A stretch of DNA of 20,397 nucleotides, taken from positions 1 through 20,397 of the forward strand of contig KE561097.1 in assembly GCA_000442015.1 (NCBI GenBank). The letters are read 5' to 3'. The stretch is from Rozella allomycis CSF55 (lineage: Eukaryota > Rozellomycota). The translations under genes were made by a program, and so were the position numbers. The number at the start of each line of letters is the position of its first letter. Positions within the stretch are counted from its first letter, which is position 1. Shown here one piece after another: positions 504 through 19,314 of the stretch. A model generated the notes under the pieces. That model did not search any database, was not told the DNA's origin, and saw only the letters and a list, made by a program, of their open reading frames with translations.

Positions 504-2711
504 ATGAGCTCTACGCACAGACAATTTAACACAAATGAAGAGGACCATAAAACAGATTTAGAATCAGATGATAATTATTTTAACGATGTGGCAAGCATAC
601 TGTCAAAAGAAATGAGTGTCAAATATCGGCAAGAAGTAAAACTCCGTGATTAATTATTCTAGACCATAAATGAAACACATCCATTTGGAATTAGATTATG
701 GAAACCCGCATTATATAAAAAGGAAAGAAGCATTGAGGCAGCCGCTGAAGAAGCTGTTCATTCAATCCCAGAGTCATCAAGGGAGAGCTATTTCTATCCA
801 GGCAACATTGCATGGTTTATATTGTTCGGATGGTGGATGTCATTGCTTTATTTTACTAGCGGATTGATGCTAAAAACTCTTGGCCACAAATTCTCAAAAT
901 TGATGATTCAAATGGCTTGGTACATAATTTGGCCATTTGGGAAGTACATAGAAAAACAGCGAGAAGTAATTATTCATGATGACTTTTCATCATCTCCTGA
1001 CAATGAGAATGAGGGGCTTAACCAACCCTTGTTAAGAGATGCTATTGATCCTAGAACTTCAGGGTATTTCCATTATGGGCCTAGCTATTCGATGAGACTT
1101 TTGATATCTAGGCTCAAAAAGAGAGATTTTTTAATCTACTATTTCTTTTATTGTATTGTGATTGCCCCCATGCATCTGTTTGCCTCATTGTTATGTTGGT
1201 TCTTTGTTATATCTGTTCCCATGGCCAAAGTTAATGGAGTTTTACTTAATCAGCTTCTTCGATCGCCCAATTCGATTCATGTAAAATCTGGCTCTAGCGT
1301 AATAACTGGTGAAATAGTTTTGTGCACATATAAAGCTGTTGGCTTTCGATATTACAAGTATACTTACGATGGAGTAAATATAATTCTTTTGAACTTGATG
1401 GCTGTTGTAATTTTCGCCTTGGTTGATGGAATGTTCATTGCGCCTTCAATAGGTCATACTGGTATTGGGAATCCTTTAATTGTCTTTTGTTTATGTATTG
1501 TATCAACTATTCCCTTGGCATATTTCATAGGCATGTCAGTTAGTTCAATATCTGCACAATCTAGTTTGGGAATGGCTGCTGTCATTAATGCAACCTTTGG
1601 CTCGATTGTTGAAATAATACTGTATTGTTTGGCCATTACGCAAGGAAAAGCTAAATTGGTTGAGGGTGCAATTACTGGTTCTTTTCTAGGTGCCTTACTC
1701 CTTTTACCAGGGCTTTCAATGATTACCGGGGGTATTAAAAAGAAGGAACAGAAATTTAATTCAAAGAGCGCAGTCGTTACCTCAACCCTTCTTTACATGG
1801 CTATTATAGGAGCGTTTACACCAACAGTATTTTATTCAATTTTTAACAAACCTAAATATAACATCACATGCGATTCATGTAATAACAGTGTTTGTCTTTC
1901 ATGCGTTTACGAAAAGGCCAACAGCCTATTGGAAGATAAGTTTTTTCTTGAAAGCATCCGCCCATTAACTTACATCTGTTCGATAATTCTTGTGCTCGTA
2001 TATTTAGTCGGACTTTGGTTCACGCTTAGAACTCACGTTACCCAAATTTATGAAAGGCGAAGCAGCGTCATATCTGCCAGAGATAGCACTTTCAGATTTC
2101 CAGGAAACCTAAATGAGAATAATCATTCTTCCCAAAATGTTTCGCCTGAGCCTGATCACCAGGGAAGTGGTCACGATGCCCCTGCTTGGTCAAAAATTAA
2201 ATCGACCATTGTTCTTTTAGTGTCAACTGTGTTATTTTCTCTTTTAGCGGGTATGAAATTAAAAAATAATTGATTAGAACTGTTGGTAGATTCGGTAGAT
2301 TCTGTTTTAAAAGGGGGAGTTTTAAGTGAACGCTTCATTGGGTTGACTCTTTTTGCCTTGGTTCCAAACGTAACTGAATTCATCAATGCCCTCGCATTTG
2401 CTCTTAACAATAATATTTCACTATCTCTTGAAATTGGCTCAGCATATACTTTACAGGTCGCTTTGTTGCAAGTTCCAGCCTTAGTAGCATTTTCAGCCTT
2501 TTATAACAGACATGAATTCATAGATCTCGGTCACTTTTTTACTCTTTTATTTCCATTATGGGATGTTCTTGCGGTGCTAATGAGCATTTTCATGCTGACG
2601 TACGTCTATAACGAAGGAAGAACCAATTATTTCAAGGGAACCGTCCTTTCCTTTGCATACGTTGTTCTGGTTGTTTCATTTGCATTTGTTCCCAAAGATT
2701 ACTTTAAATAA
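504..2711 (+). CDS. VNX1: Vacuolar cation/proton exchanger, CaCA superfamily, Vnx1-like (3 exons)
   Basis: Exons 504-635, 663-2250 and 2278-2711 splice to 717 residues. Both introns are 27 nt (GTAAAA...CTAG and GTATGA...TTAG). The first intron restores the fungal Vnx1-type N-terminal motif around THPFGIRLWKPALYKK, followed by the PGN...FGWW segment. About a dozen hydrophobic segments follow. The first alpha repeat lies at AAVINATFGSIVEIILYCLA and the second at LFALVPNVTEFINALAFALN, joined across intron 2 as LLA-ELLVDSVDSVL. These Asn/Glu-containing helices form the cation site of CaCA exchangers. A Cys-rich loop (CDSCNNSVCLSC) before ESIRPLTYICS is typical of the long fungal branch. Likely role: Na+/K+ or Ca2+ exchange for protons at the vacuolar membrane; cation choice cannot be read from sequence. 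SPEF1 starts only 41 nt downstream. Confidence 0.92.
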
Positions 2712-2752
2712 ATAATTTAGACTTCAATGGTAAACAAATAAACAGACCACCC

Positions 2753-3639
2753 ATGCAGCCTATTACACCCCAAATTCGTGAATTAACAGAGGAAGAATTA
2801 AGAGATATGTTTGCTTGGGTTGATAGCTTTCCTTTATCTCGCCAAAAACGTAATTTTACGAGAGACTTCTCAGATGGTGGTAAGTTATGCATTAATTACC
2901 ATTTATCAGTTATGTTTGCTGAAATACTAAAGATTTTGATTCCGAAATATGTCGAATTACATAACTATCCTCCATCAAATTCGCATCAGCAAAAAGTAGT
3001 CAACTGGAATACCCTAAATCGTAAAACAACCGAATTTACTACAAAAGATTAGATAAAGTATTGAAAAAAATAGGCATTTATCTCCCTGATGATTACATTC
3101 AAGCTATTGCAGGTTGTCAGCCAGGTATCGTGGAGTGTATACTTTTCGATCTGCGAAAGATTGTAATCAATGAATCAACTAATCAAAGTTACAAGAATCA
3201 CAAAGTTCACTTTCAAATAAAAAGGACACAGTAGGGTATGGCTCTCAACGAGACCAGATAAAGCAATCCGCTCCAATCCCGATTCACAAAAAAGGTCCAA
3301 AGCTGAATCTTTCAAAACCATTAATTAACAGATTTCAATCTGTAATGGAAACACCACTTTCGAACGAAAAAGAGATCAATATGGAAGAAGGATACAATTC
3401 ACAAGTTCTGATTCAAGGTACGCTGAGTGTGTTTAGTATATCTTAAGATAAAGAATCTAAGTTTTCTCTAAATCCAGCTGTTACAGAAGAAGAAAAGGAT
3501 CAAATTATACTAGAATTGCAAGAAACAGTTGAAGTAAAATTCCTTTCAAATATCGATTTAGATCCTCCAAATCAAAATCGCCAAGTTAGAACAACTAGTC
3601 GTATTAAAAGACAAAATGATAGAAGAATTAAAACAATAA
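2753..3639 (+). CDS. SPEF1: Sperm flagellar protein 1 (SPEF1/CLAMP), axonemal calponin-homology-like protein (6 exons)
   Basis: Exons 2753-2879, 2910-3020, 3053-3162, 3189-3417, 3448-3533 and 3562-3639 give 246 residues, close to animal SPEF1. Introns are 30, 32, 26, 30 and 28 nt. The CH-like microtubule-binding domain spans about residues 5-115: FAWVDSFPLSRQKRNFTRDF, then SDG joined to VMFAEILKILIPKYVELHNY, then NWNTLNHKVLKKIGIYLPDD and PGIVECILFDLRKI. The C-terminal coiled coil (LELQETVEILQIKIAKLEQL, then VVLKDKMIEELKQ) matches the conserved SPEF1 tail and appears only when the 28-nt intron at 3534-3561 is removed. In known systems SPEF1 binds the central-pair microtubules of motile axonemes. 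Its presence implies the organism makes flagellated zoospores. It converges on the next gene with 45 nt between stop codons. Confidence 0.93.
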
Positions 3640-3684
3640 AAGTTGACCTTTAATACAAACAAAATTGGTTTATTGTTGCCATTA

Positions 3685-4601
3685 TCATGACCTCAATAAT
3701 GCGTTACTACTTTCATAAACTCCAAAAAATATAAAACCGCCTAGAGAAATCCAACAAGTTCTAGGTAGTGCGCCCTTGAAAAGAATTGCAAGACCTTCAT
3801 GGCGCAGGACATGCTTGAATCCAAATATGGCACCTTTTTTTCTAAGATACGAGTCTTTCGATGATAACATTATTCTTGTTTTAATGACATCAAATGGCGT
3901 AGTCACAAAAGCCGACAGACCACCTTAAATAACAACTGGCTTTATATTACCCGCGATGCTCCCATAAAGAGCATATCTTTCAGTATTGCGTAAATTTATA
4001 CCATTATCTAGGCTCTTTTTACAACATTTATGTCAGTTACCTTTAGAAATTCATAAATCGCGAACTGAATGCATGTGAACGGTATCCGCAAAAAAAAGAA
4101 AAGAACTAATTACCTCCCTAAATATTGTTGAAAGATATCCTGCATATAAGCCTGAGATCCCTTCATGTCTAATTAAAGTTTTCAATACACTTAGGTTATT
4201 TGGGGACATACCAACTTGCGTTCTTTGTTTCAAAATATCAATTGGCACTCTTATAAGACAAGCGGACTAGGAAATCAATAATATATGATTACTAGCTCTC
4301 CTATACAACCAGCAATTACAGGGATGAGGAATTCATTAATTCGATGTTCCAAAACATGTTTTGTAGTTTCATAAGTGATAAAAAATAGGGAGGCTATAAT
4401 TCTAACAATAAAAGACTTACTTGATGGAAATGCTGCCACTGTTGCAGACACTCCAGAGTATACACCCTTAAATCCTCCAGACTGTTTAAATCCACTTTCA
4501 CATTGCACTCTGGTTTTAATTGTATCAAGTGGATAAAGTGCTAGCTCAACAGAGAGTCCTGCAAGTCCACCTGAAAAAAGGGCTTGGAAAAAGTTCGGCA
4601 T
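3685..4601 (-). CDS. PET8: Mitochondrial S-adenosylmethionine carrier, PET8/SAMC type (6 exons)
   Basis: Minus-strand exons 4601-4421, 4393-4293, 4266-4114, 4085-4041, 4014-3951 and 3923-3685 give 260 residues, normal for SAMC. The three mitochondrial-carrier repeats are visible by their PX[DE]XX[KR] motifs: YPLDTIKTRVQ, VPIDILKQRTQV and TPFDVIKTRIML. SAMC-specific stretches are SGGLAGLSVELALYPLD, GELSACLIRVP, REIPFTCIQFAIYEF and WISLGGFIFFGVYE. The protein imports cytosolic S-adenosylmethionine across the inner membrane for mitochondrial methylation, biotin or lipoate chemistry. Introns are 27, 26, 28, 26 and 27 nt. The 28-nt intron (4086-4113) appears to end in GG rather than AG, while its removal restores the conserved REIPF...QFAIYEF helix. 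The intron at 4394-4420 has no stop and is a multiple of three. Start at ATG 4601, 60 nt after the kinase stop. Confidence 0.92.
4086..4113 (-). other. Candidate non-canonical GT...GG intron in PET8
   Basis: On the minus strand the intron begins GTAATTAG after codon GAG, has a long T-rich tract and ends TTTTGCGG. Exact removal joins GAG to ATACCG and gives REIPFTCIQFAIYEF, which matches the family. A canonical TTTTGCAG would differ at one base. The next AG downstream (after CATTCAG) would stay in frame but delete seven residues of a transmembrane helix. Confidence 0.6.
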
Positions 4602-4661
4602 TACAAAATTCAAAAAAACTTATCATTAAAAATAAATAGTAATAATCGATTTAATATTATG

Positions 4662-5843
4662 TTAAAAGTCAAGGAAAAGATGCTGAAAAGGATCCACTTG
4701 TGGACCCACTTGAGGTTCAATGGCTTCTTCCGGATACGTATCAAAGTTACATGTATCACCAGGATGTCGTGCCATTGGAATAATCGGAGCCTTTTAAAAA
4801 TATGGAAAGAGATTACTGGTATTTGCTTATCAAAAAGCATTTGCCAATCAACTCCTCTAAACCATTTGTGCTTTTTGACATCTTCAGAACCACCCTATAT
4901 TTCCGTAATTCAATCGTATACTTTAAGATTTCCAAGACGCTTTGTTCGATCACCAACTAGAAGCCTTTTGATCAGATCTTTTGCCTCTGCATCAATGTGA
5001 GTTGGAAAAGTTATTTTGCCCGCCAAAATTTTCTCATAAATACCGAAAGGATTGTCATCAAAAAAGGGCGGATAACCAGACAGCATTTCAAAAGCCAATA
5101 TCCCTAATGCCCACCAATCGACAGCTTTTCCGTGACCCTTAGATTGAATTATTTCAGGCGCCAAGTATTCAGGGGTCCCACAAAGAGTCCATGTGCGATC
5201 TTCGACAATCTTTGCAAAACCAAAATCTTGTATAGTCTAATTTAAGACCTCTACCTGTAATTTTAACATGGCCCCGCGAATCTAATAGTAAGTTCTCAGG
5301 TTTCAAATCTCTATATACTACGTTTTTAGAATGAAGGAATTCTATAGCTAATAGTATTTCAGAAATATAAAATTTCGTGACATCATTTGAAAATCGCCCC
5401 GCTCTGTTAATGAAAAATTGTGACATTACCTTCGAAGATGAGAAAACAGTTCGCCACCCAATACATACTCCATTAACATGTACAAATTTCGGGTGTTTTG
5501 AAATGTACAGAATCTTGATAAATAGATAAGACATATCTTTACAGATTAACCACAAATGGGTGATTTACAAGGGATAAAATATTTCTTTCGTTATTTACAT
5601 GTTCAACTTGCTTCAATCTCACTATTTCAGATTTCTTCAAAACTTTCATTGCAAAAAATCGATCGGGATTCGCGAGTTTGCATAAATACACCCGGCCAAA
5701 CGTCCCCGTCCCTATAAAAATTATTACAAGTAAATACCAATAGTTTTTAGTAAAATAAAGTCTGATAAACGATGTTGATTCTGGTGCGGGGGATCGTATT
5801 TTGGAGGTTTCGCACTGCTAGGAATAGGGGAAATTTCCTCCAT
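4662..5843 (-). CDS. PKA-C: cAMP-dependent protein kinase catalytic subunit (AGC kinase, 7 exons)
   Basis: Minus-strand exons 5843-5738, 5711-5543, 5513-5430, 5403-5255, 5226-4922, 4894-4817 and 4790-4662 give 339 residues; introns are 26, 29, 26, 28, 27 and 26 nt. All kinase landmarks appear in order: glycine loop GTGTFGRVY, catalytic Lys in FAMKVLKK, helix-C Glu in [26 protein letters not shown] (split by an intron), activation-loop Thr in [15 protein letters not shown], and [20 protein letters not shown]. The AGC tail ends in the hydrophobic FLDF, the PIF-type C-terminus used by [23 protein letters not shown] supports PKA rather than S6K or PKC. The N-terminal extension is short (about 30 residues). 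In fungi PKA acts with a cAMP-binding regulatory subunit in nutrient and developmental signalling. It reads divergently from the SPT20-like gene. Confidence 0.96.
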
Positions 5844-6340
5844 GATGTGGCTAGGTGTCTCTGTAGCTAAGGCGCTACAGATTCACGGAACAAGTCTCGC
5901 AGTGCTCGTTAAATCGGACGGGGAGTTTATAATTATCAATAAATTTTTTCACACAAAACAACTGTTTTCTGTCTAATCATTTTTTTACATTAGCGTTAAT
6001 CGCCTAAAATAGAATCTATCTATCTATATTCAAAACATTCAGGAATTCATTTTACCGGTTTCTTTTATCGCCTGTGACCTTCATTTACCGTTTTCCAGTT
6101 TCCTCCTGCGAATCCCGAATCTCCATTTATCTTGTTCTAATAAAAACATTTATCTTTAAATTAATATAATAATAATTATACAATTGTATACTTTTAAAGA
6201 TTTGCTACACTATGCTGTCTATGGGACTCAAAAGTTCAAAACTAAGTGTAACAAGCGACTTTAATGTCTCTAAAACGCTAATAAAGTAGATAAAAGAACA
6301 ATTTATTAATTTAATTTTATTTATATGTAATTAGACACAT

Positions 6341-6514
6341 ATGGACGATATTAATGAGCAATCCAACATACCGCTTCCAAAACTTCCGCCATCTATATCT
6401 CAACAACTACCTTTACTAAAGGGGCTGAAAATAAATATTACTTTATATATTGCATGTTCTGAGTTCAAAGACCAAATTTGGGAGAAAACGGAAGCAAAAA
6501 ATGGTTACAGACAC

Positions 6515-6545
<31 letters not shown>

Positions 6546-6610
6546 CACCACTCGACAACCACCCTGGTTCACGGTGTAAAACCCTTAAAGTGAGTGTATA
6601 TTCGAAGTGA
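6341..6610 (+). CDS. Possible small hypothetical protein containing a CA-repeat tract
   Basis: An 89-codon open frame with an ATG start, MDDINEQSNIPLPKLPPSIS. Its first roughly 55 residues look like normal coding sequence (EFKDQIWEKTEAKNG). The later part is a (Tyr/Thr)-His repeat translated from the CA microsatellite and is doubtful. A short intron may remove the repeat, but I could not place one with confidence. No family is recognised. It could instead be upstream leader sequence of the SPT20-like gene. Confidence 0.25.
6511..6549. repeat. CA/TG dinucleotide microsatellite
   Basis: A run of ACACACATAC, ATACACACAC and then uninterrupted AC units to about 6549, the only long dinucleotide repeat in the window. 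It lies in the divergent PKA/SPT20 intergenic region. Confidence 0.9.
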
Positions 6611-6881
6611 AAATGGCATTAACTCAACTTGCCAATAATCGTTTCTGAAGTCCGGGTCGTAAACTCCCCGTCCGATAAATTAGTCAGAGTATATATATTT
6701 GATATCGTTGTCTCTATATTCCGCGATTTGAGAGATTATTCGTCCCCGATGATGCGTTTAAATTTGAGCATTGATTTATTAGAGCATATCATTAGGTTTA
6801 CATTATACTAAACGCTTGTTTTCGATATCTATTCTTCATTTTCAACGACAAATAGCGAAAATATTTTTGGAAAAATACAAA

Positions 6882-9152
6882 ATGAAACCTTTCAAGATAA
6901 ATGCCCCGATGAAATTCCCAGTCCCAAAATTAAAAAGGATAGACACACAAATATCTGACAGATTTTCCAAGACAGAAGTTTCAGTATTACCAGTGGTGAA
7001 ACCTGTAGAATCTGCAGATGTGGTTTTCGTGATTTCAGTTTATAAGGATCATATTTCTTTGCAAAACCAAGTAATAAAATTTAATTTCTGGGAAAGGAAA
7101 TATCAATACCTATGCATCCATCTATCCAAGTAAGAACGATATACATTCTTTCAATTAGAAACTTATTTTTTGCATTGAACATAATATATTACCGATTGAA
7201 TTGGAAAGTTTATTAGTAGATAGTGATGTGCAATTTGTAGACGGAGGAATTTGGATCGAATTGTATGACTACCGCGCGAATACTGTGAGTCCGTTTAGTA
7301 GACGAGTCTTTTTGAAATCATCTGGAATGAATTTATACCAAGAATTATCTTCATTATCAGAGACAGATTTATCATATGATGATTTAATAGCCTGCGAGTC
7401 TAAAATTCTCGTAAAAAATAAGTCGAAATTTGATGAAAGTTAGCAAAGCACCAAGTTTTGGCATTAGAACCAGATGATTCCATTATGATGTATTTTAACC
7501 AATTTTGCTACAAAAAACATTTAATGTCTACTTTGAAGGATTCAAGGGAAAACGACTGGAAGCCTCATAAAAAAGAGCCTATCAGTAACCCGAACAATTT
7601 TGATACAGTAACCGAATGTGTCATGCCAAAGTAGACAAAACCTCAGGAACCATTCATGCCTAGATTTAAACAGCTTCAAGCCATTGAAGATTATAAGAGA
7701 CAAAAGAGTTTGCTTGATGCCGATATAAGCGTTGGACTTGATAAAAAAGGTAATTTACAGGGGTCTGTTATCAAGCCAAGGTCGCAAGCCGGGGCCATTC
7801 ATATCAACATTTGTCGGTGATGATAAAAAAGTTGTAAGGACAGTGAGGTTTGAGAAAGAAATGGAGGATGGTAAATTGATAGGATAGTTATTAAAGGTAA
7901 CAAAGAATACACATGTATGAATGTGTATGCAAATGAACAGAAAGAATTCCAAGCTGTTATTAGGGTAGGAACAGAGCCAGACTCTTCAATAAATGGATTC
8001 ATTAGAAAGTACAATAAAAACCGTCAAATAACACAGGGGCCCAGTTTGTGATGCTCATACCATGGAAATATACGTTCAAACGTTCAAAGTATTAATATCA
8101 GCCTTTGAGAGCAACGCAAAGTTAGTTAGCGATATGACAACAGGAGTTTTAGGAAACTCATCACTAGCAAGGCATTCAAGTAAGATTAATCCTATAAAGT
8201 CAAATGATAACATGCCGAAACCGAATTATCCCTCTTTGCAACAACAGTCTGCCCAGAATATTCAAGCTCAAGCAACTAACAAGGCGATCCAAGCGGTAAA
8301 TTTTATCCGACCCTGTTAGAAAAGGCGATGACGGGTATAATAAATTCAAACAGACCAGCCAGTCAACCGGTGAGGCCAGCCACTTCATTTCAACGCCCAA
8401 ATTTAAATTTTGGCGCTCCTTTAATCAGAGCGAATTCAAATGGTTCTTTCGTCCCAGCTGCTAATCAGTACCAAATCTTAATGATGCAAAAGCAACAGCA
8501 ACAAAGAATGCAACAACAATCTCAAATGGCCAATAATGGAAATGCGTATGAAGAAAATGTTTTGAATTCACTTCTAAATGGAGGGCCTACGATCTCTCAG
8601 CCACAGCCTCAAACCAGGACCCTTCAACATTCCAAGACTGAGGAACCAGATCCTGATGCGATTCTTGCATCTTTACTTGGAGGGTCGGTTCAAAATGACC
8701 CACCAAAACAGTCTACTCCATTAATGGTACCACCTGGACAGACGTCGATAGCCAGCACACCTGACATGTATCAACAGTTAATGAAGCAAAGATATTTACA
8801 ACAAATGCAGCAACAAGCCATTCTACAACAACAGCAAGCCATTCAAATGCAACAACAAATGGCTGCTCAATCTTTACCAATGAACGCTGGTCAGCAAATC
8901 CGTTCTCCTGCTTTCGCAATGTCACCAAATATGCTTCAAGGAATGTCTGCTTTACAATCAAATTCTCCCCTCATGGTAAACCCAAATCTCAACATGGTCC
9001 CTCAAAAGAAAAAATCAAGCAACCCTTCAACCCCTTCTGCTAAAAGAGTTCGCGAAGACATGAACGATTCAAACTTTAAGTTCTTTCAAGATTTTTATCG
9101 GTCCATGCAGAATGGCTCCGCCTATTATAATCCCACAAAAAAGCATCAATAA
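6882..9152 (+). CDS. SPT20: SPT20-like subunit of the SAGA transcription coactivator (9 exons)
   Basis: Exons 6882-7070, 7097-7129, 7159-7410, 7440-7607, 7635-7749, 7781-7870, 7897-8008, 8037-8295 and 8325-9152 give 681 residues. Introns are 26, 29, 29, 27, 31, 26, 28 and 29 nt. The N-terminal half resembles the Spt20 domain: VVFVISVYKDHISLQ, then CIEHNILPIELESLLVDSD, FVDGGIWIELYDYR and ACESKILLAKHQVLALEPDD. Later conserved-looking pieces are FISTFVGDDKKVVRTVRFEK and VIRVGTEPDSSINGFIRK joined to GPVCDAHTMEIYVQTFK. The C-terminal half is low complexity and Gln/Met rich, with runs such as QKQQQQRMQQQ, as in many coactivators. Spt20 holds the SAGA core together in the nucleus. The family call rests on the motif order recalled here; the exon structure is firmer than the name. 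The stop is 13 nt before the next ATG. Confidence 0.68.
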
Positions 9153-9165
9153 ATAGACCATTTTT

Positions 9166-9937
9166 ATGTCAAAGTTTACTTACCACTTCTTTATTCAACA
9201 AATAGAATTATTTATGTTTTACCTACCATCAAGGCTTAGCAGAATGCAGAAAAGCAAAAGACTAAAATTAAGGAAAAAGGAGCCTCACGAAAAAAAAGAT
9301 AATCTAAATTTAGATTGTTTTAATTCTTCTATAGTACGAGGATCATTATGGTTATGCCACGAAAAGAGAAAGTTTTTTGAAATGCTGCCCCGCTGTAGAT
9401 CAGATTATGAAACGATATCCAACGCTATAAAAACTAAAAGTCATCTTGAAGTCATTTTGTATGCAAATGAACTACATCTAAACTCCATGAAATTCCCAGC
9501 CCCAAAGTGGGTCTTCTCAGAAGCAAAAGAAGTACCCGAATGGTTAGAAAAAATAAAATACCAAAGATCATTAAAAACAATAAAAAAAGAGACAGAAATA
9601 TTTTTTAAAAAGAAGATTCCTAGTGATCTAGCAAGGTCATCGTCTTTAATTCATAATCAACTTGTTAATTATGAAGGCTTAATTCACGAGAGTATGAAGA
9701 AAATTGAACAAAGCTGTTCAATTTGCCTTCAGTTATCCCCAGATGATCCAAAGTTGACAGACATTACAAAGTTGGTTTTGAACTACGCCCTCAGGATTGC
9801 TATTGTAGAAATAGTCGATGAATTTTGCAGTTTTTCAAATATGTCAACTGACATTGTCAAAGTAACATCACAATTTATAGCTTGACTAGAATATGTCAGA
9901 TCGCTACCGGAATTACAAAAAGAGGCAAATGACATAA
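9166..9937 (+). CDS. SANT-domain protein, possibly Rrn5-like rDNA transcription factor (2 exons)
   Basis: Exons 9166-9861 and 9890-9937 give up to 247 residues; the 28-nt intron is GTAACA...CTAG. A SANT/Myb-like helix set is visible around residues 60-105: GSLWLCHEKRKFFEMLPRCR, then ISNAIKTKSHLEVILYANEL. The spaced Trp, Phe-Phe and the phrase TKS-x-LEV are the pattern of the SANT module in fungal Rrn5 proteins of the Pol I upstream activation factor. The C-terminal third (DDPKLTDITKLVLNYALRIA, then DEFCSF and SRYRNYKK-like tail SDRYRNYKKRQMT) could be a histone-fold-like helical part, a guess. Start is uncertain: ATGs at 9166, 9214 and 9244 are in frame, and the first residues are poorly protein-like. 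Function by similarity would be Pol I initiation. Confidence 0.5.
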
Positions 9938-10019
9938 TGAATTACTGAATAAACATTTTTGCAGGGCATCACCAAGTGTTATTCAGTTGATGTCAACATA
10001 TTTTTAATTTCCGAACTTT

Positions 10020-11245
10020 ATGAATCCAATGTTATTATTTTTCTTACTTCTTCAGCCCTTATTAGCAGCAGATCTTATAACATATTTTGGAAACAATGCT
10101 ATCCAGCAACAAAATTTGGATGCGAAATATTGGGAGCCAAACCTCCTGACATTGTGCAAAATCCCTAATTATTCCAATACAATACATATATATGGAGTGA
10201 CAGCATTCTTTGGAGCAAATAATTATCTGGGCATGGACTTGAGCATTCACTGTTCATCGCCATATCCTGGTTTTACGAAACCGGCCAGCGGCTATACATT
10301 GTTAAAATGCCCAGATATCGAAAATGATATTAAGCAATGTCAAAGTTTAGGGAAAAAGATCATAATATCTGTAGGTAACTATCCCTCAACATTTTGATAA
10401 AGTTAATCTTGGTAGTACAACATCGATGAAAAATGAACAGGATGGAGAAAATGTGGCAAACATGATATGGAATTCATTTTTAGGTGGATCCGGAAACAGA
10501 CCTTTCGGATCTGCAATTTTAGACGGGGTTGACTTGTGGAATAGAGACAATCAAAAAATCGGTTATTTGTCGTTGGTTAATAAATTACGCGCTCTAATGA
10601 ATGCTGACAGTTCAAGAAAATATTTGTTAACGGGTAAAAGCTTTTGATGATCCTTATAAAGCATCTGCTCGTTGTTCATATCCCGAGCCAACCTTTGGAC
10701 CACAAGTTGCAGGTTTGCCTTTTACTGAAGTACCTAAAAGTTTTGATTATATATCATTTCATGCAATGTCCACACCCGAATGCACATTTCAGAACAAGGA
10801 TCTATTTTATCAAACGTTTGAAAAATGGTCCGATTGGGCTCATCCATTAGGCATTCCTATTTATGTTGGGCTACCTGCAAGCATTTCTAATGGGGCACCA
10901 GGGGATTACATTACAGTAGGGAATTTAGGGAGTGCGCTATCAAGACTTTCAAATTTAACATCATTTAGTGGAATAACTTTATGGGAATTTTCCGCGGATT
11001 ACCAAAATCTACCTTGTTCAAATACTAAAGAATTAAGTTATGGCCAAATAATATATCAAATGATGTCCGAGAAGAAATACACCATAACATGTACAGAGGT
11101 CGAAACTACCAATACCAGAAGTAAGCCCAGGTCCACAACAAATTCTGGAAACGGCATACCTTCTTCTGCATTGGAAACTAGTCGTTTTTCTTATTCAATA
11201 TCAGAACTAGCCTTTTCCTTTTTTATTGTTGCTTTTCTAAAATAA
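10020..11245 (+). CDS. Secreted GPI-type GH18 chitinase-like protein, predicted catalytically dead (3 exons)
   Basis: Exons 10020-10374, 10403-10633 and 10662-11245 give 389 residues; both introns are 28 nt. A signal peptide (MNPMLLFFLLLQPLLAA) precedes the first barrel strand ADLITYFGNN, matching class III fungal/plant-type chitinases (usually VAVYWGQN). Further family marks are LLKCPDIENDIKQCQSLGKK, RPFGSAILDGVD, YLLTASARCSYPEPTFGP and GITLWEFSADY. The GH18 catalytic motif DGxDxDxE reads DGVDLWNR, so the catalytic Glu is Arg and the preceding Asp is Trp. The SxGG motif reads SVVN, and the usual QFYNN strand reads SFHAM. The C-terminus has a Ser/Thr-rich linker and an ending hydrophobic segment (LAFSFFIVAFLK) like a GPI signal. 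Most likely a surface chitin or glycan-binding lectin rather than a hydrolase. Confidence 0.85.
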
Positions 11246-11729
11246 AAATCTCGGATTTAGTCTAATTTTAATTTAACGATTAAAATAAAAGCAATTGATT
11301 TAATTGTTTTTCCAAAGGAGCCAAAACTTGCAAGTGTGCAAATGACCCTTGTCAATTCAAACTGACCATTCAGGAAAATAACCTCGGAATGGACGCAGGT
11401 CCTGCAGGAAACAATCATTGCAAACTCTCCTTCTTGGAAGTTTAACCCTAAGTGTTACAAATTTTGACGAGGTTTTCTTTTCTTCCTTCTAAAAAGAGAA
11501 AGACGTGCGAAGATTGCTGACCAACATTCGGTGAAATAGAATTTGTGGTAACACAAAAAAGGTACGCCTTGCTCTATTTTGTTAATACCAATGGGTCAGT
11601 CCTGTATACGAGGTTTTCCGCGGATTTTCTTAAACTACATGTAGAATAATCAAGATTTAAGATTTTCAGATAAAAGTTTATTTGAACTAGCTTTGTATAA
11701 CATAAAAGTAAATTTTCCAAGCGTCAGTC
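11246..11729 (+). other. Intergenic stretch with unresolved coding-like fragments
   Basis: No complete gene could be built here. Two stretches read like protein. One, near 11310-11445, gives KGAKTCKCANDPCQFKLTIQ and then AGNNHCKLSFLEV before a stop. The other, near 11505-11649, gives DVRRLLTNI and, if a 31-nt GTGAAA...AAAG segment at about 11531-11561 is an intron, continues RYALLYFVNTNGSVLYTRFS to a stop. The middle could not be joined in one frame and no start codon was found. It may be a short multi-exon gene or a decayed one. Confidence 0.35.
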
Positions 11730-12559
11730 ATGTCTTCAACTTTTGAAAAAGTAAACTAGGTGGTTACAATTTAGAAGGTTCAGCAAACATTTGAAGAAGG
11801 TGTTGATAAACTTGCAACTTCGGTTGAAAAGGCTGTATCCGCTGGGATCGAGCTAGGTAAAAAAGGAGGTAATTAAATTTGCAAAGTCAACAATTGGTGC
11901 TAACCCAATCCAGCCACCAGAAGCGACTAGCATGAGTGAAAAGGCAGGGCACCACATGGGTTACGCAGCTGGGACGACAAGTGAATTAGGTTCCGAAAGC
12001 TCTCAAAAAGCAATGAATATGGCGAACAAAGCAGGAGAGACGCTAAAAGATGTCCAAAACAAGGCCTCTGAAATTGGTCAATCGGCGAAAGAGAAAGCAC
12101 AACATAGTGCTGATATGACAAAAGAAACCTTACATCAAACGCAAGACACGCTGCAACAAAGTGCGCATGATATGAAAGCTGGGGCCAACGTTGGATATTC
12201 TCAAGGAAAGGAAGAAACAGCAGAAGTTACATCTTCTCTAGGCAAGAAAATGGCAGAAGCTAGTAATTTTTAAATTATGAATTATAAAAGTGGGCAATGT
12301 GAAAGAAACTGTTTTGTCTGTCTTCCCCGGCCATCACCCATCTGCGGAACACTCGCCAACTTTTGATCCTCACATCAAGAGACAGCAAGAAATACATCCT
12401 TCAGTTTCAAGCATTCATGAGAGTTATGAAAGCGGGAAAGAGGCTGTGAAAGAGAAGGTTAGTCCATCACCAAGCACAACAGCCAGCTTCCATGCCGGAG
12501 AAGCGAAAGCAAAAGCTGAAAACAGAGACCCTGGAGTTTGTAAATATGTTAAAGTTTAA
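11730..12559 (+). CDS. LEA-like hydrophilic stress protein (4 exons)
   Basis: Exons 11730-11750, 11778-11834, 11866-12262 and 12291-12559 give 247 residues; introns are 27 (or 24, same frame), 31 and 28 nt. The protein is hydrophilic and rich in Ala, Lys, Glu, Gln and Ser. Its middle carries loose 11-residue amphipathic repeats of the late-embryogenesis-abundant group 3/4 kind: GETLKDVQNKASEIGQSAKE, ADMTKETLHQTQDTLQQSAH. A second low-complexity part (FPGHHPSAEHSPTFDPHIKR, then ESGKEAVKEKVSPSPS) follows intron 3. LEA proteins are disordered in solution and protect membranes and proteins during drying; a role in resting spores or cysts would be an inference. The 5' exons are least certain: removal of 11835-11865 joins VEKA to EVIKFAKSTIGANP, which reads well, but intron 1 has two possible acceptors (11774 or 11777). 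Confidence 0.65.
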
Positions 12560-12883
12560 TGACAAGTTGAAAAGATCAAACAAAGTGTGTCATCAATTAT
12601 CCCTCATCGAGAGGAATAAAGAATAAATAATTTGTTATCATTTTTAAGTATTTGTTGGTTTTTTTATAAAAAAATTAAGACAATTTATCTAGTCACTAAA
12701 TTGTTCTTGAAACTTCAATGAGGATGAGGATCTATTCCTGCCTACTAGGCTTCCATGTGCTCAAAGGTCCACACCAAAAACGTAAGATAATTTACGCCTT
12801 CAGTTCAAATTATAATCATAATAACAGTCTATTTGTGCGTTGCGTACATGGAATATAGAAATGTCTGCATTACATTTCTTAAG
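12560..12883. other. Intergenic, nothing recognised
   Basis: AT-rich gap of 324 bp between the LEA-like gene and tRNA-Leu. It contains a T-run/A-run near 12660-12676 and no open frame with coding character. The tRNA itself carries its internal promoter. Confidence 0.6.
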
Positions 12884-12965
12884 GGTGAGATGGCCGAGCG
12901 GTCTAAGGCGTGTGACTCAAGTTCTCATATCTCCGGATGCGTGGGTTCAAATCCCACTCTCACTA
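12884..12965 (+). tRNA. tRNA-Leu, anticodon CAA, no intron
   Basis: A class II tRNA of 82 nt. Acceptor strand GGTGAGA pairs with TCTCACT (the G1-U72 pair is a wobble), with discriminator A. The D-arm GCCGAGCGGTCTAAGGC, anticodon loop CTCAAGT with anticodon CAA, a variable arm with ATC/GAT stem and TCCG loop, and T-arm GTGGG-TTCAAAT-CCCAC are all in order. Discriminator A and the D-arm fit leucine rather than serine. The anticodon stem (TGTGA/TCTCA) has one T-T mismatch. Many eukaryotic tRNA-Leu(CAA) genes carry an intron next to the anticodon; this one does not. A box TGGCCGAGCGG and B box GGTTCAAATCC are intact. Confidence 0.95.
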
Positions 12966-12966
12966 C

Positions 12967-12970
12967 TTTT
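12967..12970 (+). terminator. RNA polymerase III terminator of tRNA-Leu
   Basis: TTTT begins two bases after the discriminator base, the expected Pol III stop signal. Confidence 0.8.
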
Positions 12971-13003
12971 GCAAAATTTTTACCACATTGCAAAATTTCC
13001 GAC

Positions 13004-14007
13004 ATGTCTAACGTTAAAGACACGGAGCTTTTGCGTGATATTTTATCTGATAAAACCAGTAGTCCAATCTCAAAGCTTGAGTTTGTTAATTTTGCGCAAA
13101 GCGTCACATTAGATTTTGAGAATATTGCATATGTTGAAGCATGTACCAGGTATATCATTAAATACCATGTATGGAAAAGCAAGATTGACGAGGATTATGC
13201 AAAAGTAATAAAAGGTTATATTAATGATAGATTTATGAGGGGGAAGAGAGGAATCCGTTGATGATTTTGGTTAATCAAAATTCCTCGACCAACAATGTAA
13301 CCAGATCGCAGGGCAATTTATCTAAATCGATGAAGAGCATTGCCAATCTAGTTGTCGGAAAAAATGAGAATGTAGAAATTCCAGAAAATTTATTGAATTC
13401 TAGAGCGTTTGAAGAATGGTCAACTAGCGCCATGAAGCAAATAATTAATGATTTCCTTGTGAATGGGTCGCCTAATGAATTGAATATAGATGGAAACATT
13501 AGTTCAGCGGTGAGAGAAGCGTTTGAGCATGGTGAATTAGATCCGAGCGTGTTGGACCCGTCGTTGAAGGCAGTTTTCAAAAACATTCTTGATAATACGT
13601 TAAGAAGATTTAAAAAGGAGCAGATGAGTACGAACATTGGAGAAGCCGATAGGAGGATTCGATTCATAGTAGGGATAACTGGATCATTGTTTTCTGTTTT
13701 AGGCCTTGTGTTGATATTTGCGCTACCGTCGTCGATATATTGGATGCGATTGGGAATGTTGTTGCCATTAGGTACGATGTATGCGGGGTATATTCAATAC
13801 CGGAACAAGTTTTGTGTGATGCATGGGGCCAAGAATACATTGTCGATGGCCAAGAGTGTGAAGGATATGGTGTATGTAAAAGTGAAAGATTCGTGTGTGA
13901 TGGCTAGTCATAAAGAGATTACAAGAAAATTGAATTTTCAGATCTATTTTATGACACTAATGTCATTGATTATTGTGATGTTAATACCGCCCACTCCATG
14001 GTACTAG
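13004..14007 (+). CDS. RAX1: RGS-domain protein with three C-terminal membrane helices, Rax1-like (2 exons)
   Basis: Exons 13004-13204 and 13231-14007 give 325 residues; the 26-nt intron (GTAATA...ATAG) joins DEDYAK to IYEGEERNPLMILVNQ. The N-terminal part reads as an RGS fold: TELLRDILSDKTSSPISKLE, then FVNFAQ, FENIAYVEACTRYIIKY, and after a linker RAFEEWSTSAMKQIINDFLV. Three hydrophobic helices lie at about 211-231 (FIVGITGSLFSVLGLVLIFA), 236-257 and 305-322. An RGS domain plus three TM helices is the layout of fungal Rax1, which in yeast marks sites for bud-site selection. What the protein does in an organism without buds is unknown. Start ATG 13004 lies only 39 nt beyond the tRNA, so its promoter overlaps the tRNA gene. 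Codons in the second half are strongly G-ending, unlike upstream genes. Confidence 0.7.
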
Positions 14008-14012
14008 AATAA

Positions 14013-14240
14013 AGTTAATGATTTTTAATGATTTCTTTAAATACTTCTTTTAATGATTTCTTTAAATGATTTCTTTAAATGATTTTTTAATGATTTCTTT
14101 ATATAATTTCTTTAATATTTATATGATTTCTTTTAATGATTCCTTAATGATTTCTTTAAATTTTTCCTTATATGATTTATTTAACGATTCCATTTAAAAA
14201 TTTATAATCATTTTTCTTTATTTCTTTATTTCTTTACTCT
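14013..14240. repeat. AT-rich imperfect minisatellite
   Basis: The whole 255-bp gap between the Rax1-like gene and beta-COP is built of degenerate copies of TTTAATGATTTCTTTAAA and shorter TGATTTCTTT units, about ten in all, fading into TTTCTTTATTTC before the beta-COP start. There is no coding sense in any frame. Confidence 0.85.
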
Positions 14241-14262
14241 CACAATTTCTAAATTTTCAGGA

Positions 14263-17230
14263 ATGACCCTTGTAATGAGTGATAGCTGTTTTAGTATAAT
14301 AAGCAGTAGCGAGGAAGCAGTTAGTGTGGAGAGAGTCAAGGAAGAGTTGGAGAAGGGGAGTGTTGAAGAGAAGATAAGTGTTATGAAGCGGGTGATAGTG
14401 AGTATGATGAATGGTGAGAATATGAGTGGGTTGTTGATGCATGTGATAAGATTTGTGATGCCGAACAGCAATAAGAATAAGATACTGAAGAAGCTGATGT
14501 TGATGTTTTATGAGATAACGCCCAAAGTTGATGGTGAGGGAAGGATGCAACAGGAGTGGATATTAGCGTGTAATGCGCTTCAGAATGATTTGAAGCATGC
14601 GAATGAGTATGTGAGAGGAGCGACGTTGAGGTTTGTGAGCAAGTTGAAGCAGGTGGAGATATTGGAGCCGTTGATGCCTAATATAAGGCAGTGTTTGGTA
14701 AGATGATTGAAAGTGAGTGAAAAGGAACATAAAAATGCGTATGTGAGAAGGAATGCAGTGTATGCGTTGTATCGAGTGTATTGTGTGGAGAGGAGACTTG
14801 TGCCTGATGCGAGTGAGTTGATAGTGAGTTTTGTGAGGGGAGAGAGTGATAAGATGAGCAAGAGGAATGGATTTAATATGTTGGTTGAGATTGACAAGAG
14901 AGAGGCGATAAAGTATTTGTTGGAGAGTAGGGAAGAGATTAAGGGGTATGATAGTTTGATGCAGATGGCGATATTGGAGTTGATAAAGAAGGATGACGAA
15001 GCAGAGCAGGGAGAGAAGATGGTTTATATGAAGATATTGATAGATTTGATATCGAGTGCGGGGTCATCAGCTGTGAGGTTTGATGCTGCGAATGTATTGT
15101 TGAGGTTGACGAGTAATGGTAGTGCAGTGAAGGAGATTGGACGGTTGTATGTAGAGTTGGCGATTAAAGAGGGCGACAATAATGTAAAGTTGATTGTGTT
15201 GAATAAATTTAAAGAATTGAAGGATAGATTTAAGAGTCAAGTTGAAGATTTGAGTGTTGAAATGATAAAGATAATTTCATGTAGTGATTTTGCGATTAAG
15301 AGTTTGACGATTGAAATAATATTGGATTTGTTGAATGGAAAGAATGAGAAATATTTAGTTGATTATTTTAAGAAAGAATTATTTAAACGCGAACAAGAGC
15401 AAGATGAAAAGATTCAATTATTGTTTATGAAATCATTGAAAAAGATAATAATGAAATTTCCAGAATCTATAAATAGAATTAAAGAAAATTTGAGTTTATT
15501 TTTAAAAGGAGAAATTGGAAAAGAAGTTTGTGAGATTTACAAGTTTATTTTGAGTGTTGAAAGAGATGAGCAAGTATTTAAAGAAATAAAGAAAATATTT
15601 GAAGAGATTAAAGATGCGATAATTTTAAGAAGAATATTTTGGTTATTTGGAGAATTTGGGCGAAGTGAAGAGAATTTAGAGTTTTTGCTATCAAGAGTTG
15701 AGGGGGTTAAAATGTTAGAATTAGAAGGAGTTAAAAGAGACAGTGTAAATGATAACACACTTCAATCACCTCAGACTATGCAATCCCCTCAAACTATGCA
15801 ATCCCCCATTAACTCTCCACAATCTCTGTTATCTCCACTGTCACCAACTAGTTCATTGTTTACTGGTAATCCATTGGCTAGTTTGAATTCAATGCTACAA
15901 CAAAATAATTTTCTTGTTTGTTCAATGGCCAATTGTTTAACAAAGATTTTCCTTTCTTTAAACTCAAATACTTCTAATACTTCTAATGGTTTGAATTCTC
16001 TCAAGGCAAGGGTTTTGTTGGTGTTGACAAGGTTGGCTGGTTTGGTTTCTGGAGATGATTATTCACTTTATTTGATAACATTTTATTTAAAAGTTATAAT
16101 TTTGAATGATGAGAATTTAAATCAAATTATTTTAAATGAATCTTTAAATTCAATCAAAGAATTTTATTTGGAAAATTCAAAAAAATTAATGAAAAAAGAT
16201 TTTAAATCTATTTCTATTGACAAGGGTATCAAATTTAGATTATTCAATCAAGAGAATGAGAAAGAGATCAATGAAGGAAATAGTTCAAATCTAATCTCTA
16301 ATCTAACGTCTACTCTCTCGTCTAATCTCTCATCTACTCTCTCATCTATTTCATTGTCTGGGTATTCAGATTTAGTTTATGTTGAAGGAATTATTTTGAT
16401 TAATTTGTTTGAATTAACGTTGGATGTTCTTTTAGTGAATCAATCGTCACACACACTGCAAAATGTTCTTTTGGAAATTTCTTCTGATTTAAAAATATCT
16501 GATAAACCTCAGCCACTCACATTAGCCCCTTTTTCTTTTAATTCTATAAAATTAAAAATTAAATTATCTTCCTGTGAATCTACTCTCATCCATTCTTCTC
16601 TCTCTTTTGATCTAAATGTAAATTCTGAAATCATCTTTTTAAATCCAATCAAAATTGACATTTTAGAATTCCTCAAACCTGAAAGTATTTCCAGTGATCA
16701 ATTCAGAGAATTCTGGAAGCAATTTGAATGGGAAAACAAAGTCAAAGTATCAAAAGTTAGATATGAGGGGGTTAAGGGAGAGGGAGTAGAGAAGGTGAAG
16801 GGAGATGGAGAGAAGGGTGGTGAAAGTGAGAAGGATGGTGAGAATGTTACTAGTGTTTCTAATGTTACTAATGTTACTAGTGTTGCTAGTGTTACTAGTG
16901 TTCCAAGCAATGTCACGGTTAGTATCGTAACTACTGATCAAGGTAATTTGGTTTCTTTTAGCTTAAATAGAAAATCCATTACTAAGCTTCTTTAATGAGT
17001 TAATGAACAAGATGAAAATGTTTACAGTCAACGTTAGCTGCACTTCTGGAAATGATTCTCTCTCCTTTCTATCAGCCACCGCTTATTCAAAATCTATCTT
17101 TGGTGAAGACATTGTTCTCTCAATCTCTCTAGACTTGGAAAATTACATCAATGGCCACATTCGAATCAGATGCAAATCTAGAGGCTTAGCTTTGGCTATC
17201 GGTGAGAAAATCTCTCTTCTTCTCAAATAA
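14263..17230 (+). CDS. SEC26: Coatomer subunit beta (beta-COP, SEC26; 3 exons)
   Basis: Exons 14263-14697, 14725-16942 and 16971-17230 give 970 residues, normal for beta-COP; introns are 27 and 28 nt. The N-terminal adaptin-like solenoid shows GLLMHVIRFVMPNSNKNKIL, VRGATLRFVSKLKQVEILEP, LMPNIRQCLEHKNAYVRRNA (joined by intron 1) and KEGDNNVKLIVLNKFKELKD. The C-terminal appendage ends KSIFGEDIVLSISL...GHIRIRCKSRGLALAIGEKI, reached only after intron 2 is removed. Beta-COP is a core COPI coat subunit recruited by Arf1 to Golgi membranes for retrograde transport. Oddities: a tandem SPQTMQSPQTMQSP stretch near residue 500, a Ser/Leu/Thr-rich tract, and an Asn-Val-Thr-Ser repeat before intron 2. Strand composition flips inside the gene (see findings). 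ATG 14275 is an alternative start. Confidence 0.95.
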
Positions 17231-17460
17231 ACTATTAATGTTTGAAGTTTTAATTTTAATTTTGAAATTTATTAGAAGATATTAATTTATTATATTAGTA
17301 ATTAATGAAATGCACAAGGTAATGGTAATCAGCAACTGCNGATCGACAATATCCAGCATTCCAAATCCCGAGATTACCCCTCGTCTATTGTAAATGTATC
17401 CGGTTTTTGCATGTTTCTAACTATTACACCCGCGTTGTGTTCCATGGAAATATGGTGANA
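17231..17460. other. Gapped boundary between beta-COP and the metalloprotease fragment
   Basis: About 230 bp, AT-rich at first, with N at 17340 and 17459. On the minus strand there are short open pieces, for example NMQKPDTFTIDEG near 17390-17430, that might be further metalloprotease exons. They could not be joined across the gaps. Confidence 0.4.
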
Positions 17461-17991
17461 ACACTTACACTTTCATCTATTTCAATGTCAGCGGGAAAAT
17501 TAAAATTTTGATCATTCTTGAAACAGCTCGAATGCAATGATAATCTCCTATTAATAGATTCCACAGAACACGGCGAAAATTTGTGACTATTTTCACTCTC
17601 TCCTGAAACTACAGCATTCATAATAAATGATCCCCTTTCACACTCTCCAGAATCATGATCAGCTCCAAATGTATGTCCTATCTCATGCGCAAGTGTAGTC
17701 ACTTCTCGTGAACGTGATATCTTGCCATGGCTCCCCTCATTCGTTACTACAATCGTATTCAATCCAATACTACTACACATCCCAGCCTTGCCACTAGCAT
17801 CATCACCCAAATATGCTAATCCAAGCAACCCTCCATACGGTCTCGGACTCACCAAGATCATCAAACACGGCTTCCGGTCTGGAAACGTCTCATTAAACTT
17901 TGGCAATATCACATAATTATTAACAGACACCATTTTCAACATGTCCAATGCTTCATCTATCGTATTAAAGTTTTGAGATAACGTTGAATAA
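17461..17991 (-). CDS. ADAM-type zinc metalloprotease, partial (adamalysin domain)
   Basis: A continuous minus-strand frame between two N gaps, about 177 codons, partial at both ends. It contains the adamalysin/reprolysin zinc site TLAHEIGHTFGADHDSGE (HExxHxxGxxHD) with intact Glu. The Met-turn is in GSFIMNAVVSGESE, and the disulfide Cys follow in KFSPCSVESINRRLSLHSSC. Upstream, GGLLGLAYLGDDASGKAGMC is the ADAM10/17-like pattern. Such proteases are secreted or membrane-anchored sheddases. The prodomain is missing or lies across the gap at 17992; a frame with LFDDDDMT just beyond may continue it. Disintegrin and membrane parts should lie toward lower coordinates but are not readable. Whether the gene is intact in the organism cannot be told from this assembly. 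Confidence 0.8.
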
Positions 17992-18015
17992 NGTCATATC
18001 ATCATCATCAAACAG

Positions 18016-18053
18016 ATTATCTGTTCATGTCTTAACTCAACCGCGTTCTGAGC
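18016..18053. repeat. 38-bp direct repeat, copy A
   Basis: Begins ATTATCTGTTCATGTCT and ends GTTCTGAGC. Copy B at 18142-18179 differs at one base. On the minus strand both read AQNAVELRHEQII. Copy B starts two bases after the N at 18140. Confidence 0.85.
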
Positions 18054-18141
18054 ATCAGTAGTGTTTTCTGAATTTTTGTCTGTCATCCTGTCTGTCATTT
18101 TTGACGTTATGCCCTGTACTACCTCTTTCGTTCTTCTTTNT

Positions 18142-18179
18142 ATTATCTGTTCATGTCTCAACTCAACCGCGTTCTGAGC
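18142..18179. repeat. 38-bp direct repeat, copy B
   Basis: Second copy of the 38-bp unit, immediately right of the gap at 18140. It could be a true tandem duplication or the overlapping ends of two contigs placed as neighbours. Confidence 0.85.
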
Positions 18180-18828: not shown

Positions 18829-19140
18829 ATATAGACAGTATAGTATTATGATTTTTTGGAGAATCCTACGGTAAAACGTTAAACGTTTCGGACCAGGATC
18901 TTTACGGGAAACGGGTGTGTCAAGCTCCCCTTTACTCCTTTTCTAAGAAAAATTAGCAACCTCCAATCGCCAGTCACCGACCATGCACTTGCTCACTTTC
19001 TTTTAAATATAAAAAAATAGTTAAAATAAAATAGAAAATATTTATTGTCATAGTTCATTATGATTATTTGTATCATTTCATTTCATTTCATTTCATTTCA
19101 TTTTGTACTCAGCCTCAGTGGTTTAATCTTATGCCATTGA
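18829..19140. repeat. Direct repeat unit, copy 2 (long)
   Basis: The most complete copy. Bases 18829-18987 equal copy 3 over 159 bp. Bases 18938-19048 equal copy 1. It also contains a (TTTCA)n pentamer run at about 19074-19103 and ends with the CTCAGCCTCAGTGGTTTAAT phrase. No terminal inverted repeats, polymerase or transposase were seen. Confidence 0.88.
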
Positions 19141-19154
19141 GGCGCATTATCTGN

Positions 19155-19313
19155 ATATAGACAGTATAGTATTATGATTTTTTGGAGAATCCTACGGTAA
19201 AACGTTAAACGTTTCGGACCAGGATCTTTACGGGAAACGGGTGTGTCAAGCTCCCCTTTACTCCTTTTCTAAGAAAAATTAGCAACCTCCAATCGCCAGT
19301 CACCGACCATGCA
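19155..19313. repeat. Direct repeat unit, copy 3, bounded by N on both sides
   Basis: A 159-bp segment identical by eye to 18829-18987. The flanking bases 19154 and 19314 are both N, so the whole segment between two gaps is one repeat copy. Confidence 0.88.
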
Positions 19314-19314
19314 N

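Follow-up and report, generated by a model that had tools for sequence, protein, structure and literature searches.

Introns of 15–30 nt are a puzzle for an assembly as large as the spliceosome. The DNA considered here is a stretch of 20,397 nt from the genome of Rozella allomycis CSF55 (Rozellomycota, Fungi), namely positions 1 to 20,397 of contig KE561097.1, referred to as the window. The window is one scaffold of a draft assembly of 9,970,177 bases in 213 contigs, and ten of its genes contain 36 curated introns of only 26–32 nt: nine each of 26, 27, and 28 nt, four of 29 nt, two of 30 nt, two of 31 nt, and one of 32 nt. The ends are GT..AG in 35 of the 36, the sole exception being the GT..GG intron at 4086–4113 on the minus strand. 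The tight class of tiny introns proposed in an earlier sequence-only reading, which had counted 35 of them in ten genes, is confirmed, the two tallies differing by one 27-mer. It appears likely from the sequences that these are U2-type introns, almost uniform in length throughout the genome sample, with a branch adenosine set by a fixed spacing from the 5′ splice site.

The gene finder used for the models had a mild length preference, with 25–29 nt favored, and printed 54 introns. Of these, 35 were kept and 19 were dropped by judgement, on the grounds that the intron was unneeded in an open frame, that homology contradicted it, or that the model was unconvincing; the GT..GG intron was added by hand. 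The dropped segments are 1681–1707, 1788–1910, 1947–1973, 2484–2509, 2498–2542, 3231–3257, 4041–4065, 4358–4388, 4522–4552, 4639–4668, 9334–9366, 13150–13179, 16226–16252, 17721–17747, 18191–18216, 18284–18316, 19399–19430, 19488–19513, and 19562–19610. Agreement with the earlier tally is not blind, because that tally was known beforehand and the gene finder favored 25–29 nt. Furthermore, the divisibility of the spliced lengths by three, which had been offered as support, proves nothing, being built into the models. A recognized family was found in eight of the ten genes, seven by Pfam (Na/Ca exchanger, CH domain, mitochondrial carrier, protein kinase, Spt20, RGS, and coatomer beta) and the chitinase via solved structures, with no Pfam family for the genes at 9244–9937 and 11730–12619. 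The five introns of these two genes are weak because no family is recognized, and one of them, 11835–11865, is doubtful.

Removal of the segments restores conserved proteins. In the gene for the catalytic subunit of PKA, all six junctions were gap-free within 8 residues in all of seven homologues, picked among the 120 matches listed; 6 to 16 of 17 positions were identical, and the unspliced sequence carries 14 to 27 stops per frame. In the gene for an S-adenosylmethionine (SAM) mitochondrial carrier (SAMC), three of five junctions were gap-free in all three homologues, and the other two had a gap no more than 8 residues away in all three. Junctions also fell within ungapped alignment to solved structures in the chitinase-like (2 of 2), SPEF1-like (3 of 5), and beta-COP (1 of 2) proteins. 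With respect to the public proteins of Rozella allomycis CSF55, P0001, P0241, and P0121 match 15 of the 19 introns compared, as judged from protein identity (PKA, 5/6; SPT20, 7/8; carrier, 3/5), and the introns themselves are thus not new, since these proteins already imply most of those compared. We infer that the segments are spliced. That they might instead not be introns, with assembly errors, translational bypassing, or DNA elimination in their place, would be in keeping with a basis that is here DNA only, with the single Ns in the scaffold, and with the one segment ending in GG; this explanation is given next to no probability in view of the tight size class, the GT and AG ends, the detected spliceosome, the repeated gap-free repair of conserved proteins in steps of 26–29 nt, and the removal of the same segments in public gene models.

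The size class extends beyond the window. An intron-length survey, which the sequence-only reading had proposed genome-wide, was run on twenty 10-kb stretches, taken from 20 contigs, together with the window (220,397 b), by counting, for each dinucleotide pair, the segments whose removal joins two coding-like flanks, with TG–AG, GT–GA, and TG–GA as controls. An excess of GT..AG over the matched controls was observed only at 26–30 nt, with counts at 26, 27, 28, 29, and 30 nt of 29, 30, 25, 19, and 8, control means of 8.7, 4.0, 9.3, 11.3, and 6.0, and ratios of 3.35, 7.50, 2.68, 1.68, and 1.33, respectively. The ratio was 0.63–0.79 at other lengths and 0.95 at 31–33 and 34–40 nt, which leaves room for a minor class slightly longer than 30 nt; no substantial class of long introns was seen in this count up to 399 nt. 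An initial, stricter codon test for frame-joining segments gave no signal, and its thresholds were then relaxed. A gene finder knowing only GTA and AG as intron ends, and scoring lengths of 12–60 nt alike, returned 4, 6, 73, 50, 58, 42, 18, 11, and 5 introns at 24 to 32 nt, respectively, with a sharp lower edge between 25 nt (6 introns) and 26 nt (73). A loose gene finder applied to eight loci of small nuclear RNAs (snRNAs) and splicing proteins was noisy, with lengths of 12–284 nt and 14, 19, 7, and 9 introns at 26–29 nt, and was left out of the evidence. Nearly all introns in the sample lie under about 35 nt, as in the Paramecium class, with a few longer ones possible. The accessible part of one report gives 2.53 introns per kb for Rozella (PMC8476143).

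With nucleotides numbered from the 5′ splice site, the strongest signal in the intron interior falls at nt 23 and is an A (A23) in every class of 26–30 nt. When the model scored only nt 1–6 and the last three nucleotides, A23 was present in 91% of 85 introns of 26 nt, 71% of 59 of 27 nt, 62% of 64 of 28 nt, and 69% of 39 of 29 nt. With no intron motif model and the window excluded, the values at 26–30 nt were 90% of 30, 73% of 26, 67% of 24, 74% of 19, and 71% of 7; in the GTA/AG-only set they were 65/73, 33/50, 37/58, 24/42, and 14/18, with p values between 2e-24 and 3e-4 when compared with the A content of nt 10–22. Control introns of 34–60 nt have A23 in 53 of 152. In introns of 26, 27, 28, and 29 nt this A stands at −4, −5, −6, and −7 from the 3′ end; A23 is thus anchored to the 5′ end, since its distance to the 3′ end grows by 1 nt per nt of length. 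The acceptor floats 3–7 nt downstream, with tails after A23 of 3 nt in 65 introns, 4 nt in 33, 5 nt in 37, 6 nt in 24, 7 nt in 14, 8 nt in 2, and 9 nt in 3.

This movement bears on the view that no ruler exists, the introns being of the usual ultra-short type seen in Paramecium, and that A23 arises from composition or from a 3′ splice-site consensus. An interior A+T content of 76% fits that view, as does the A at −4 in 26-nt introns, which would suit a 3′ splice-site preference, and intron-rich lineages with short introns have been reported, in the available part of PMC2483917, to have no branch signature. A preference of this kind is contradicted by the shift of the A from −4 to −7, which tracks the 5′ end, and a compositional origin by the excess of A23 over the A content of nt 10–22 in five length classes and over the control of 34–60 nt, so that we judge this view unlikely.

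The surroundings of A23 are weakly defined. T is the most frequent base at nt 21 (53%, GTA/AG-only set), and introns lacking A23 have A24 in 57% of 60 and T22 in 58%, with A24 in 35% of 108 introns that have A23. Past GTA the 5′ end is weak, with A at nt 4 in 65% and no base over 43% at nt 5–10. Neither the strict branch site nor the strict extended 5′ splice site that mark U12-type introns was found here, and the interior has no strict motif. In-frame stops number 38 against 43.1 expected from shuffling at 26 nt, 32 against 36.5 at 28 nt, and 24 against 24.9 at 29 nt; there is thus no enrichment above shuffle in the classes not divisible by three, and the 27-nt class was pre-selected for a stop. 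That A23 is a genuine fixed signal other than the branch point, such as an SF3b or Prp8 contact near the acceptor, would accord with surroundings that barely complement the branch-recognition stretch of U2. UNA is the core of weak branch sites, however, and the T two bases upstream of A23 gives such a core, and the signal moves as a unit (T22, A24) where A23 is missing; a role other than branching therefore seems distinctly improbable.

With A23 as the branch point, the following mechanism can be proposed. Each intron opens with GTA and would carry its branch adenosine at nt 23, or in some cases nt 24, which puts it about 22 nt downstream of the 5′ splice site irrespective of intron length. 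U1 and then U6 would occupy the 5′ splice site and U2/SF3b the branch region, with a fixed minimal spacing kept between the two sites. Distance would thus be the main determinant of the branch A and sequence (U at nt 21, A at nt 23) a weak one, while the first AG to come within reach, 3–7 nt past the branch A, would serve as acceptor. A hard floor of 26 nt would then result from adding the shortest usable tail, NAG, to 23 nt, and the length spread of the introns would be the spread of their tails; the sharp 26-nt minimum would be explained by a branch A fixed at nt 23. We infer both the branch point and the ruler from the DNA. A23 fits an intron measured across its own length, as in intron definition, of which an unusual form was suggested in the sequence-only reading, and the modified U1/U2 machinery suggested alongside it is unsupported at the RNA level.

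Several observations weigh against a fixed 5′ spacing. The three selections in which A23 was counted overlap and share most of one sample, and are not independent. In the window itself A23 occurs in only 22 of 36 introns, only a little above chance (A24 is found in 8 of the 14 others), and introns of 31 nt are without the signal (2/11). Among 279 introns, the best match to the yeast-type TACTAAC was no better than in shuffled introns, and, with no such consensus beyond shuffle, one base and its position are all that mark the proposed branch point. In the GTA/AG-only set, 177 of 178 A23 introns end at the first AG met from nt 25 onward, which is weak support because with a short tail this rule is mostly obeyed by chance. 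On the sense strand of coding exons (79,395 nt), GTA is followed by an A at nt 23 and by an AG 3–6 nt further on in 52 places, and such decoys are not depleted relative to neighboring spacings; sense-exon GTA..AG segments are mildly rarer at 26–29 nt (41.0 per length) than at 24–25 and 30–31 nt (49.0). Since exons hold comparable decoys, the A23 rule by itself does not suffice to define introns. When all lengths of 15–150 nt were treated alike, a gene finder drifted to several long segments, including one of 139 nt in PKA and one of 99 nt in the carrier; these two were rejected, homology showing that exons had been swallowed. Finally, Prp18 and Slu7 are retained in the genome despite the tiny branch-to-acceptor distance proposed.

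A spliceosome is detected in the genome. U2 snRNA scored 139.2 bits (cut-off 46), with the branch-recognition stretch of the Rfam consensus intact, and U6 snRNA 88.5 bits (cut-off 44), with an intact ACAGAGA box; U1 snRNA scored 69 bits, just under its cut-off of 69.5, and its 5′ recognition sequence, ACUUACCUG, is intact. For the three snRNAs searched, the parts that contact the intron are thus canonical and of U2 type. Prp8, SF1, Slu7, Prp18, Prp38, and MFAP1 were found above cut-off in the genome. Among the homologues that the sequence-only reading had singled out for inspection, U2 is canonical where it contacts the intron and SF1 was detected, and U2AF gave a family match under cut-off; because of this sub-cut-off match, and because the same family also scores in 2 of 14 control genomes, the candidate is named only U2AF65-like. 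No candidate for RED with Pfam RED_N or RED_C was found in the 9.97-Mb assembly, which is probably incomplete (against about 11.9 Mb for the Rozella genome), and its absence is not thereby shown.

For human spliceosomes, the accessible part of PMC6692369 reports a required distance of about 50 nt from 5′ splice site to branch site, assembly failing at 35 nt, and a requirement for Smu1 and RED when this distance is short. Something must accordingly differ in Rozella, which would suit U1 and U2 RNAs modified for tiny introns; altered U1/U2 RNAs are nonetheless not supported, because U2 and U6 are canonical at the parts that contact the intron and the 5′ recognition sequence of U1 is kept, and we regard them as highly improbable. 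The difference may lie at the protein level. As a tentative elaboration of the fixed 5′ spacing, a ruler of about 22 nt might operate with a largely sequence-free choice of the branch, without a Smu1–RED bridge, and with a compacted pre-catalytic complex. The human Smu1–RED introns resemble those of Rozella in that a short distance from 5′ splice site to branch is limiting, with a limit of about 50 nt in human versus about 22 nt in Rozella, and RED was not detected in the latter, which is not proof of absence (PMC6692369, as accessible).

Very short introns are known elsewhere, and the comparisons that follow reflect the accessible portions of the papers cited. Ciliates, nucleomorphs, Trichomonas, and microsporidia all have ultra-short introns (PMC9505925, PMC2633312, PMC5014332, PMC12316389, PMC3629993, PMC2483917), with recorded lengths of 15–16 nt in Stentor, 18 nt in the Bigelowiella nucleomorph, 21–29 nt in Nyctotherus, and 20–33 nt in Paramecium (PMC9505925, PMC12316389, PMC2633312). 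To have placed the Rozella introns close to the lower limit was fair, yet those of Stentor are shorter. The introns of Paramecium tetraurelia (20–33 nt) and Nyctotherus ovalis (21–29 nt) are like those of Rozella in being GTA..AG, intron-rich in context, T-rich, and without a branch consensus (PMC2633312, PMC2483917). In Nyctotherus, however, a motif search is reported to have yielded no branch point or other motif (PMC2633312), whereas Rozella has an A at a fixed 5′ distance; unlike introns of the Paramecium class, those of Rozella combine the lack of a consensus with an A fixed at nt 23. In-frame stops are favored in ciliate introns; in the non-3n classes of Rozella no enrichment above shuffle was seen.

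Stentor coeruleus shares with Rozella a fixed position of the branch A, a weak sequence around it, and canonical snRNAs (PMC9505925). Its A lies at nt 10 of 15-nt and nt 11 of 16-nt introns, that is, at a constant 3′ distance, whereas in Rozella introns of 26–29 nt the 3′ distance varies and the 5′ distance is constant; in addition, Slu7 and Prp18 were reported as not found in Stentor, in contrast to Rozella (PMC9505925). Type B introns of Trichomonas vaginalis, of about 23 nt upward, also have GT..AG ends and a branch site near the acceptor (PMC12316389), but their strict branch motif is fused to the 3′ splice site and introns are few in Trichomonas, whereas those of Rozella are numerous and lack a strict motif. 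Encephalitozoon cuniculi, of the Microsporidia, which are relatives of Rozella, has introns of 22–76 nt with the same GT..AG ends, but they are few and carry strict 5′ and branch motifs, as opposed to the many introns with weak motifs of Rozella (PMC3629993). The strong branch motif of the intron-poor class formed by yeasts, Trichomonas, and Encephalitozoon was not found among the 279 introns compared with TACTAAC. In the open-access literature searched, no paper was found that deals with tiny Rozella introns or with a constant spacing of the branch from the 5′ splice site, and the word intron does not occur in PMC5701793 and PMC10716661; as far as that literature tells, the fixed 5′ spacing appears to be new, and the introns themselves are not.

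At the level of single genes, the histone H2A gene (45–449) is intronless. The next, a CAX-like Na/Ca exchanger gene on the plus strand, has two 27-nt introns, 636–662 (T at nt 23) and 2251–2277 (A23), both supported by the gene finder and Pfam. The SPEF1-like gene, also on the plus strand, has five introns found by the gene finder, of which 2880–2909 (30 nt, T at nt 23), 3021–3052 (32 nt, A23), and 3163–3188 (26 nt, A23) are further supported by structure alignment, 3418–3447 (30 nt, A23) removes an in-frame stop, and 3534–3561 (28 nt, A23) has a putative SPEF1 match at the C terminus.

The carrier (SAMC) gene, on the minus strand, has four introns supported by both the gene finder and homology: 3924–3950 (27 nt, T at nt 23), 4015–4040 (26 nt, A23), 4267–4292 (26 nt, C at nt 23), and 4394–4420 (27 nt, T at nt 23 and A at nt 24). 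The fifth, the GT..GG intron at 4086–4113 (28 nt), is demanded by homology, IPFTCIQF being conserved in all three aligned homologues; it has T at nt 23 and 24, ends in GG with no AG, and would reflect either a base error or a genuine non-AG acceptor. The 45-nt exon between the second and this intron (4041–4085, minus strand) encodes IPFTCIQFAIYEFLK. The public carrier protein P0121, assigned to another contig of 9,298 bases, deletes 4015–4113 as a single block and skips this 15-residue exon.

All six introns of the PKA gene, on the minus strand, are supported by the gene finder and homology. Those at 4791–4816 and 5404–5429 (both 26 nt) have A23, and those at 4895–4921 (27 nt), 5227–5254 (28 nt), and 5514–5542 (29 nt) have T at nt 23 and A at nt 24. 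The remaining intron, 5712–5737 (26 nt, A23), is not in P0001, a protein 100% identical to the predicted PKA over 83% of its length. P0001 begins at an internal Met, lacking the first 56 residues and with them the glycine-rich loop (5712–5843, minus strand), a consequence of overlooking the first exon together with its 26-nt intron. A CA dinucleotide repeat occupies a noncoding stretch at about 6505–6548.

The SPT20-like gene on the plus strand has eight introns found by the gene finder, seven of them identical to those of P0241. Five of these have A23: 7071–7096 (26 nt), 7411–7439 (29 nt), 7608–7634 (27 nt), 8009–8036 (28 nt), and 8296–8324 (29 nt); the other two, 7130–7158 (29 nt) and 7750–7780 (31 nt), have C at nt 23 and A at nt 24. 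At the eighth, 7871–7896 (26 nt, A23), P0241 differs, implying a 35-nt intron (7871–7905) with an acceptor 9 nt further than 7896, and the A23 rule favors 26 nt, which keeps GNK.

The remaining introns all lie on the plus strand and were found by the gene finder. The gene at 9244–9937, without a Pfam match, has one weak intron, 9862–9889 (28 nt, G at nt 23 and A at nt 24). The class III chitinase-like gene (10020–11245) has two of 28 nt with A23, 10375–10402 and 10634–10661, supported by structure alignment. DGxDxDxE is the catalytic motif of class III chitinases; the region aligned to it here reads DGVDLWNR, and the protein may therefore be inactive. In the gene at 11730–12619, for which no family is recognized, 11751–11777 (27 nt, A23), 12263–12290 (28 nt, T at nt 23 and A at nt 24), and 12540–12566 (27 nt, A23) are weak, and the doubtful 11835–11865 (31 nt) has G at nt 23 and T at nt 24. 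The RGS-domain gene, immediately upstream of which stands a tRNA-Leu (CAA) gene at 12884–12966 on the plus strand, has a 26-nt intron at 13205–13230 (A23), also supported by Pfam. The beta-COP gene has two introns with A23, 14698–14724 (27 nt), supported by structure alignment, and 16943–16970 (28 nt), supported by Pfam.

In the last part of the window (17200–20397), direct repeats were observed, among them one of 159 nt occurring twice identically 326 nt apart and one of 121 nt recurring at 97% identity 434 nt apart; their position among isolated single Ns suggests that the assembly was joined through repeats. An open frame on the minus strand (17424–17990) encodes a reprolysin-like (M12B) metalloprotease domain with the motif HEIGHTFGADHD and is interrupted at an N.

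If the branch point does lie about 22 nt into each intron and is chosen by distance alone, the introns of Rozella would offer a simple and testable geometry. For gene prediction, this would translate into a rule of GTA, an A at nt 23–24, and the nearest AG, the application of which would alter three public gene models in the window.

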